DNA from: Fibrobacterota bacterium
GTDB taxonomy: Bacteria > Fibrobacterota > Fibrobacteria > UBA11236
Assembly (NCBI GenBank): GCA_019509785.1
Contig: JAEKLQ010000073.1
Span: forward strand, 1-33,858
DNA length: 33,858 nt
Reading direction: 5' to 3'
Shown: piece after piece, positions 16,066-26,712 of the stretch
How the letters are laid out: every line of letters begins with the position of its first letter
Numbering within the stretch: the first letter of the stretch is position 1
Made by a program: the position numbers and the translations under genes
The notes under the pieces: model-generated
Seen by the model: only the letters and a program-made list of their open reading frames with translations
What the model was told of the DNA's origin: nothing
The model's database searches: none

Positions 16066-16201
16066 CTTCAGCTCCTTTCCGGCGACGCGACCCGCGCCGC
16101 CGCGAAGGGAAGCATAAGAGTGCCGGGCGGCCGCATCGGTGCGCGCGGCCACGGCAGGGCCGCGAGGGCGAACTCGATTCGTTGGCCCCGGGGACGGTAA
16201 T

Positions 16202-16207
16202 TATATT
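16202..16207 (+). promoter_or_regulatory. -10 element (TATATT) immediately before the MBL start
   Basis: TATATT matches the -10 consensus at five of six positions and ends 6 nt before the ATG at 16214. A start of transcription at or next to the ATG would make the mRNA leaderless. No Shine-Dalgarno is present between it and the ATG, which fits. No consensus -35 was found at the usual distance. Confidence 0.45.
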
Positions 16208-16213
16208 CTTCCC

Positions 16214-17068
16214 ATGCGGGTCACCTTCCTCGGCACGGGCACTTCCCATGGCATTCCCGTGATCGGCTGCGCCTGCCAGGTCTGCACCTCCCCCAATCCC
16301 AAGAACCGCCGTAACCGCATCGGCGTCTGGCTGCACGAAGGCCCCCCCCATGTCGGCCGGGACCTTTCCGAAAGGGCCCGCGGGACGGCTCCCGAAGACG
16401 CCCCTTCCCCGCCGCCAGAAATCCCGCGCGGACTTTCCGCCGTGATCGACGTATCGAGCGAATTCAGGACCGCGGCCCTGGCCAACGGCCTCAAGCATCT
16501 CGACTTCGTCCTGCTAACGCACGCGCATAGCGACCACGCCTCGGGCATGGACGACCTGCGCATCTTTTCCCAGGCTAGCGGCAAAGCCATGCCCATCTAT
16601 GCCGACATGCGCACCTTGGATGAAGTCCGCCAGCGGTTCTCCTATGCCTTCGATAATCGCAAGGCCTACGGCGGCGGCGTGCCGCAATACGAATTGCGCC
16701 CGGCCGGCCTACCCTTCCGCCAAGGTAACTGGACGATTACCCCCCTTCCGGTCATGCACGGGCCAGAGCCCATCCTCGGCTTCCGGGTCGGCAATTTCGC
16801 GTTCATCACCGACGTAACGGTCATCCCCGAAGCCACCCTGGAACTGCTCCAGGGACTGGACGTGCTGGCCTTGGACTGCCTGCGCCCGCGCCCGCATACC
16901 ACCCACCTTTCTTACGATCAGGCCGTGGCCTATGCCCGGCGCATCGGCGCCCGGCGCACTTTCATGATCCACATGACCCACGATTTCGATCATGAGGAGC
17001 TGGAGCGGATGCTGCCCGCGGGGATGCGGGCGGCCTTCGACGGGTTGACCGTGGAGATCGCGGAATAG
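16214..17068 (+). CDS. metallo-beta-lactamase-fold hydrolase, PhnP-like phosphodiesterase
   Basis: A 284-residue MBL-fold protein. It starts MRVTFLGTGTSHGIPVIGC, typical of the PhnP/RNase Z-like branch, with C19-x-C21-x2-C24 as in PhnP's extra zinc site. The metal ligands are H103-x-H105-x-D107-H108 (LTHAHSDHASG), H182 (VMHG), D200 (FITD) and H231 or H253/H256 near the C-terminus (LRPRPHTTHLS, IHMTHDFDH). A proline-rich insertion at about residues 42-72 sits before the first core strand. PhnP acts on 5-phosphoribosyl 1,2-cyclic phosphate, but no other phosphonate genes are nearby, so the substrate here could be another cyclic phosphodiester. The ATG at 16214 is preferred over an upstream alternative because the family N-terminus begins exactly there. 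Confidence 0.9.
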   Translation: MRVTFLGTGTSHGIPVIGCACQVCTSPNPKNRRNRIGVWLHEGPPHVGRDLSERARGTAPEDAPSPPPEIPRGLSAVIDVSSEFRTAALANGLKHLDFVLLTHAHSDHASGMDDLRIFSQASGKAMPIYADMRTLDEVRQRFSYAFDNRKAYGGGVPQYELRPAGLPFRQGNWTITPLPVMHGPEPILGFRVGNFAFITDVTVIPEATLELLQGLDVLALDCLRPRPHTTHLSYDQAVAYARRIGARRTFMIHMTHDFDHEELERMLPAGMRAAFDGLTVEIAE

Positions 17069-17077
17069 TTTTCTGGG

Positions 17078-17482
17078 CGCGTCGGGCCGTCGCTTGAGGT
17101 CCTTCCGCGCTTTGGATTCGGGCGTCCGCATGGGGTTGCGGTCCGCGGTCGGGGTTTGGCCTGGAGCGCGCGGCTGCATGTCCCGGGCAGGGCCGGGGGT
17201 CCGTTCCGCCTCGGATGCTCACTCATCGCAGAGGCGGTCTGTTCACGGGCTGGAGAAGGGACGCCCGCTGAACCAAGGTGTATGTCTCTCGCCGGCTGCA
17301 GCGGGCTGGCCGTCCCCTGGATCTGAACCCTTCTCCAGCCCGTGTGCGCTCGCAACTCGGCGGACCGGACCCCCAGACCCGCCCTACCCCGCGGAACGCG
17401 CGATCCAGGCCCAACCCCGTCCGCGCTTCGCGGGCCATGGGAGGCCACGGGCACGTGGAGGACTCCGCGCGGACTGGACGCG
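17078..17482. repeat. ~405-bp imperfect palindrome filling a convergent intergenic gap
   Basis: The gap between the MBL stop (17068) and the rfbC stop (17539) holds two inverted, diverged copies of a ~160-180-bp sequence around an axis near 17284. Matching blocks from the outside in: CGCGTC (17078-17083) with GACGCG (17477-17482); 17151-17172 with 17397-17418 (GGGGTTTGGCCTGG versus GGGGTTGGGCCTGG, then x-CGCGCG); 17195-17210 with 17359-17374 (15 of 16 paired); CACGGGCTGGAGAAGGG at 17244-17260 with its perfect complement at 17328-17344; CCCGCTG (17264-17270) with CAGCGGG (17299-17305). Three of these pairs share exactly the same axis. No convincing gene lies inside. It could be a folded RNA, a palindromic mobile element or an old inverted duplication. 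Confidence 0.8.
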
Positions 17483-17538
17483 GCCTAATTGCCCGCGCGC
17501 TCTGTGGGTTTATCCCTGGGGGGCGAGGTGCTTTTCGA

Positions 17539-18090
17539 TCAGGTTAGGAGCTTGCGCTTGAATTCGTGGAAGGATTGGTTTTTCTTGTCGCGTTCGGAGA
17601 GGATGGGGACGATGCCTTGGAGGGGCCAGGCGACGGCGAGGTCGGGGTCGTTCCAGGCGATGCCGGCTTCGGTGGATGGGTTGTAGAGGTTGGAGCATTT
17701 GTATTGCACTTCGGCGGTCTCGGAGAGCACCAGGAAACCATGGGCGAAGCCGACGGGGATGAATACCTGCATCATTCCGGCATCGTCCAATTCGGCGCCG
17801 TAGTGCTGGCCGAAGGTCGGCGAGGATGGGCGGATGTCCACGGCGACGTCCCAGATTTTTCCGCGGGTGCAGCGGATGAGCTTGGCCTGCCCGGGATGGG
17901 TTTGGAAGTGCAGGCCGCGCAAGGTGCCGCGCATCGAAGCGCTGTGGTTATCCTGCACGAAGGCATCCCGGATGCCCGCCGCTTCGAAGGCGGAGCGGTT
18001 ATAGCTTTCCTGGAACCAGCCGCGGTCGTCCCGGAAGACTTTCGGGGAGAGCAAAAGCAATCCTTCCAATGGCGTCTTTATCGCATCCAT
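17539..18090 (-). CDS. rfbC: dTDP-4-dehydrorhamnose 3,5-epimerase
   Basis: A cytoplasmic cupin-fold epimerase that acts on dTDP-4-keto-6-deoxy-glucose on the route to dTDP-L-rhamnose for surface polysaccharide. The 183-residue length is normal for the family. Signature features: FRDDRGWFQESYN, the catalytic His in RGLHFQ (H61), GKIWDVAVDIR, PVGFAHGF, the Tyr pair in VQYKCSNLYNP (Y130, Y136) and the acidic residue in IAWNDPDLAVAWP (D148). The ATG at 18090 is preferred to a TTG three codons upstream because it matches the usual family start. The other rhamnose genes (rmlA, B, D) are not in the window, so the gene stands alone between a palindrome and a divergent SGNH/TPR gene. Confidence 0.95.
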   Translation of the reverse strand: MDAIKTPLEGLLLLSPKVFRDDRGWFQESYNRSAFEAAGIRDAFVQDNHSASMRGTLRGLHFQTHPGQAKLIRCTRGKIWDVAVDIRPSSPTFGQHYGAELDDAGMMQVFIPVGFAHGFLVLSETAEVQYKCSNLYNPSTEAGIAWNDPDLAVAWPLQGIVPILSERDKKNQSFHEFKRKLLT

Positions 18091-18136
18091 GGCGCGCAAA
18101 AGTAGCTAATCGGGCCCGGTCGGGGCCGGGCCAGGT

Positions 18137-26635: not shown

Positions 26636-26712
<77 letters not shown>

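Follow-up and report, generated by a model that had tools for sequence, protein, structure and literature searches.

A family of large intergenic palindromes, probably a mobile-type DNA repeat, in one uncultured Fibrobacterota genus

Known palindromic repeats and the hairpin in the window

REP units are palindromes 20-40 bp long that carry a GTAG or CGTC tag and are thought to move as single-stranded hairpins by means of a Y1 transposase acting in trans (PMC3116915, PMC2817692, PMC3733652), and REPINs are inverted doublets of palindromes that are likewise mobilised in trans (PMC3116915). Among the intergenic repeat units, RU-1 (ERIC) measures 127 bp and RU-2 168 bp (PMC2759123). Template switching, described for RNA genes, yields compensatory changes of several bases at once and does not pass through G-U intermediates (PMC8794818).

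The palindrome analysed here lies at 17075-17500 (426 nt, + strand) of the window, by which we mean the whole analysed stretch of 33,858 nucleotides. Folding and repeat finding identified it as a single long imperfect hairpin that closes end to end, and it was assigned to subfamily I of the repeat family described below. The original prediction of inverted arms around a constant axis, with paired coordinates adding up to 34569, was reproduced by an inverted repeat at 17185-17210/17359-17384 (26 nt, 85%). The perfect 17-bp inner arm was also recovered at 17244-17260/17328-17344, and its coordinate sum of 34588 versus 34569 corresponds to the predicted shift of 19 nt. RNA folding of 17060-17500 gave -262.3 kcal mol−1 on the + strand compared to -223.6 ± 6.9 kcal mol−1 for shuffled sequences (z -5.6) and a z of -6.1 on the - strand, with nearly the whole stretch paired and none of 100 shuffles folding as well. 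Folded as single-stranded DNA, the palindrome reached a z of -5.2.

The 5' terminus carries the motif GGGCGCGTCGGGCC (17075-17088, +), for which a motif search of the genome returned seven exact matches, six at family copies and one within a gene; with up to two mismatches, the matches stayed at chance level. The 3' terminus GCCCGCGCGC (17491-17500, +) pairs with the 5' terminus in both the RNA and DNA folds. TCT flanks the copy on both sides (17072-17074 and 17501-17503) as a possible 3-bp target duplication. Between the termini, the conserved family core of 205 nt (17180-17384, +) scored 193.7 and 153 bits with the covariance models R1 and R2, respectively, while the BLAST match to the family in the window extended over 17072-17433. 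Alignment of copies revealed a conserved core segment CTCGGATGCTCACT (17210-17223, +; consensus CTCGGATGCTCGCT) and, opposite to it, a second one, GCGCTCGCAACTCG (17346-17359, +). Further inwards, the conserved inner helix strand GACGCCCGC (17260-17268, +) pairs with GCGGGC of 17301-17306.

Two conserved neighbours converge on the palindrome, a gene for a metallo-beta-lactamase fold protein (Lactamase_B_2; 16139-17068, +) and a dTDP-4-dehydrorhamnose 3,5-epimerase gene (17539-18099, -; 3' end at 17539). The open reading frames over the palindrome itself (17094-17561, +, and 16990-17454, -) had no Pfam match. The hairpin had no meaningful match in Rfam, neither at gathering nor at permissive thresholds (to E 0.5). 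The sole Rfam match in the window was a tRNA gene at 26639-26712 (-).

Size, distribution and placement of the family

The copy number was checked by searching the source genome (G000; 5.4 Mb in 106 contigs, assembly 96% complete) at the nucleotide level, which returned three more nearly full-length copies with 74-77% identity and several partial ones. The covariance model R1, built on nine aligned cores, detected 37 clear copies in G000 as well as further ones in three genomes of the genus. With R2, built on 61 copies, 46 copies were counted in G000, and 19, 6, 5, 1 and 0 in the same-genus genomes G005, G004, G002, G003 and G001, respectively. Searching 675 kb of G000 stretches lifted its count from 46 to 49, and approximately 80 copies were found across the genus in total, with a core of approximately 205 nt and whole hairpins commonly of 250-450 nt. 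The palindrome is thus multicopy and folds beyond shuffled controls, rather than being a single-copy sequence with chance-level pairing. An inverted duplication arising at the window locus alone, one of the options originally offered, would account for the palindrome itself; however, the same core and the whole hairpin recur at approximately 80 sites, and with the family this reading is already refuted and practically impossible.

No copies were found in the other 162 genomes when a phylum set of 168 genomes was scored with stricter filters, and plasmid and phage collections gave no match. A literature search on Fibrobacteres and palindromic or hairpin repeats returned no description of such a family. 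We conclude that the family is real and apparently undescribed, and that it belongs to one uncultured Fibrobacterota genus.

None of the 62 analysed copies lay inside a convincingly scored predicted gene, although the sampled DNA is approximately 88% coding; one copy (L070) overlapped a weakly scoring open reading frame. The gene predictions for this placement came from a simple codon-usage script rather than a trained gene finder. With respect to their neighbours, 18 copies were sense-sense, 23 antisense-antisense, 10 antisense-sense and 7 sense-antisense, and no orientation bias was evident. The predicted position between converging genes therefore describes the window copy well but fails as a general rule, as most copies lie between co-directional genes. 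A reading of the hairpins as 3' UTR elements or terminators was rejected because of the mixed orientation. The third-position GC skew was uninformative for a replication-strand bias (19/33, Spearman 0.04).

In single copies, the nearest gene lies a median 54 nt from the 5' end of the hairpin, compared to 233 nt from its 3' end (p 3e-6). All 16 close pairs, with copies at most approximately 550 bp apart (nine in G000, six in G005 and one in G004), are convergent with their 5' ends outward. The gaps between the paired hairpins (approximately 142-534 bp) are too small for a gene, and no sequence was common among these spacers. The loop of one copy contains an insertion of approximately 160 bp with 79% identity to the spacer of a hairpin pair elsewhere (L007:1701-1849, L094:1751-1899), so that another repeat is lodged inside the element.

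At argG, uvrB, gpmI and an SRPBCC-like gene (L141, L153, L159 and L135), the hairpin 5' end abuts a promoter-like region; at all of these except uvrB, a TACATT/TATATT-like box lies approximately 5-7 nt from the hairpin end. Upstream of a leuA-like gene (L147, L142-L145), a short leucine-rich leader open reading frame, ending in ...ALLLGLTG in G000, is followed by a GC hairpin and a T-run; the arrangement is conserved in the genus and looks like a leucine attenuator. Furthermore, two near-perfect and closely similar dyads around ATGTATTGACAATC (L213:15656-15690 and L216:18483-18525) are probably the operator site of a regulator.

Compared to the described systems, the family shares with REP, BIME and REPIN sequences the dispersed intergenic palindromes, the many copies per genome and the inverted doublets. 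It differs from REPs in its unit of 205 nt (core) to approximately 450 nt, in its tens rather than hundreds of copies and in its ends, as no GTAG tag was noticed and the letters CGTC in GGGCGCGTCGGGCC are paired instead of forming an unpaired tag. It also differs from REPs and REPINs in that the assembly lacks a Y1_Tnp gene. Similar to MITEs, RU-1 and RU-2, the copies are non-coding, intergenic, hairpin-forming, multicopy and present or absent between relatives, and, as in a MITE, the ends pair with each other as terminal inverted repeats and no Pfam domain was found in the open reading frames. However, the family is larger and its doublets occur in one orientation only, and neither the target-site duplication nor the parent transposon of a MITE was demonstrated. 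Overall, the family is ordinary in kind, but unusual in its size, its one-way doublets and its DNA-type covariation.

Covariation in the arms

Covarying base pairs are commonly regarded as proof that an RNA is functional. Selection at the RNA level predicts that G-U pairs greatly outnumber A-C pairs on the transcribed strand, an A-C being a G-U mirrored on the other strand. Over 62 distinct copies, both sides changed in 57 of the 62 pairs. Double-change cells numbered 793 compared to 226 ± 14 in shuffled data, and 92.6% of the cells were paired versus at most 48% when the alignment was slid. In the arms, the covariation consists of Watson-Crick double changes.

At first sight, these data suit a structured non-coding RNA or an RNA acting in cis (as a terminator, a regulatory hairpin or a stabiliser of the 3' UTR) that is transcribed together with its neighbours, a large structured RNA being another of the original options. 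The stable fold on both strands, the conserved core segments around variable stems, the strong covariation and a few inner columns with G-C/G-U/A-U series all fit such an RNA. However, the balance of the two mismatch types in the arms does not follow the RNA prediction. When arm was compared with arm in a strand-symmetric alignment of each copy, 103 G-U and 78 A-C mismatches were counted (p 0.07), and in the model alignment the 56 pairs without fixed G-U gave 45 G-U and 52 A-C. Counted likewise, an RNase P control from the same class reached, in contrast, 329 G-U to 20 A-C. As the model alignment is structure-fitted and leans towards G-U, the parity of the two in the arms is all the more telling. 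Orientation relative to co-directional genes made no difference either (27:23 vs 39:23, p 0.44). At sites shared between species, 258 paired positions had changed on both sides, versus 41 changes to G-U and 27 to A-C.

As G-U is not in excess over A-C in the arms, the pairing seems to be kept at the DNA level, and maintenance of the arms as DNA, rather than as an ordinary structured RNA, is most likely. Together with the lack of a meaningful Rfam match for the hairpin, the lack of a credible one among the family copies and the mixed orientation to neighbouring genes, this makes the RNA explanation improbable for the element as a whole. All columns of the structure-fitted alignment taken together gave 143 G-U and 57 A-C, an excess confined to six columns, which were chosen for their G-U content, so that the split describes the data but does not test them independently. 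These six columns are mostly inner, or else adjacent to the loop or to the conserved core segments, and an RNA role is possible for this inner core.

Age, spread and maintenance of the copies

At the window site, the five relatives (G001-G005) carry the same convergent genes, roughly 20-100 bp apart and free of any hairpin. The simplest reading is that the window copy was gained in the G000 lineage, loss in all five relatives being conceivable as well. The hairpin upstream of gpmI in G000 is also missing in the five relatives. The uvrB and argG hairpins, on the other hand, are common to G000 and G005, whereas in the other relatives these sites lack the hairpin or have a different palindrome in its place. 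Another family of long palindromes, with CGTCGGGCGTCGGGCGTAAA-like ends, was observed at intergenic sites of G005 and G002 (L029, L139 and L146), among them the argG and uvrB sites that in G000 carry the present family.

Approximately nine loci have copies in sister species in the same relative orientation, which suggests that some copies are old and retained. The hairpins at such shared sites are hardly more alike (identity 0.564) than random copies from different genomes (0.548), so that descent with saturation, conversion and re-insertion at the same site cannot be separated by sequence; the shared orientation favours vertical descent.

The option of a palindromic mobile element or genome-specific intergenic repeat thus agrees best with a family that is multicopy, intergenic, genus-restricted and faced by an empty site in relatives. 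In our judgement, the family is rather likely a non-coding, non-autonomous, REPIN/MITE-like palindromic DNA repeat that has dispersed between the genes of a single Fibrobacterota genus. It would be mobilised in trans, in a REP/REPIN- or MITE-like manner, by a putative enzyme recognising the hairpin or its GGGCGCG-type end, and the two-hairpin unit is possibly the mobilised form. A Y1_Tnp gene (PF01797; RAYT/IS200-type), the only transposase type searched, was not found in the 96%-complete G000 assembly, where a missed gene is possible; PF01797 was present in 5 of 14 control genomes. An origin from RAYT/IS200 elements is therefore unsupported. No target-site duplication was found at the other inspected copies, and the non-coding flanks of the relatives were not alignable.

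The arms of this REPIN/MITE-like repeat would be kept complementary by a process at the DNA level and not by RNA selection. Either template switching or quasipalindrome correction copies one arm from the other, or a DNA hairpin is selected for, and the data fit both alike. Like template-switch hairpins, the family shows compensatory changes that span several bases and lack G-U intermediates, the outcome that arm-to-arm DNA copying predicts. It differs from them in being a dispersed repeat that is not RNA-gene-like, with arm-to-arm copying as a proposed process.

Copies at shared sites retain the conserved core segments despite heavy divergence, which counts against a useless element, since such an element would need selection, conversion or re-insertion to keep its core. 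A domesticated DNA site is to be considered, in which a putative chromosome-organising or regulatory protein binds to the hairpin or cruciform, or else to the core as a duplex, and selection retains the copies. Such a site is compatible with a mobile origin. It would suit the approximately nine loci that keep site and relative orientation in sister species at approximately 56% identity, and the several copies whose ends lie approximately 5 nt from what may be the -10 box of a promoter; however, presence and absence are lineage-specific and one same-genus genome (G001) is without a detectable copy, and we regard domestication as a tentative possibility. Similarly doubtful, though conceivable, is a combined scenario in which template switching keeps the arms complementary across species divergence and the retained copies are sites for a putative host or recombination protein.

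The family adds an unusually large palindromic repeat to a phylum for which none was found in the literature, and its approximately 80 copies are natural replicates for measuring how long palindromes are maintained. Strong covariation, combined with a DNA-like balance of G-U and A-C and a mixed orientation, makes it a worked case for telling RNA from DNA. If template switching holds true, RNA-like covariation would arise here without an RNA.
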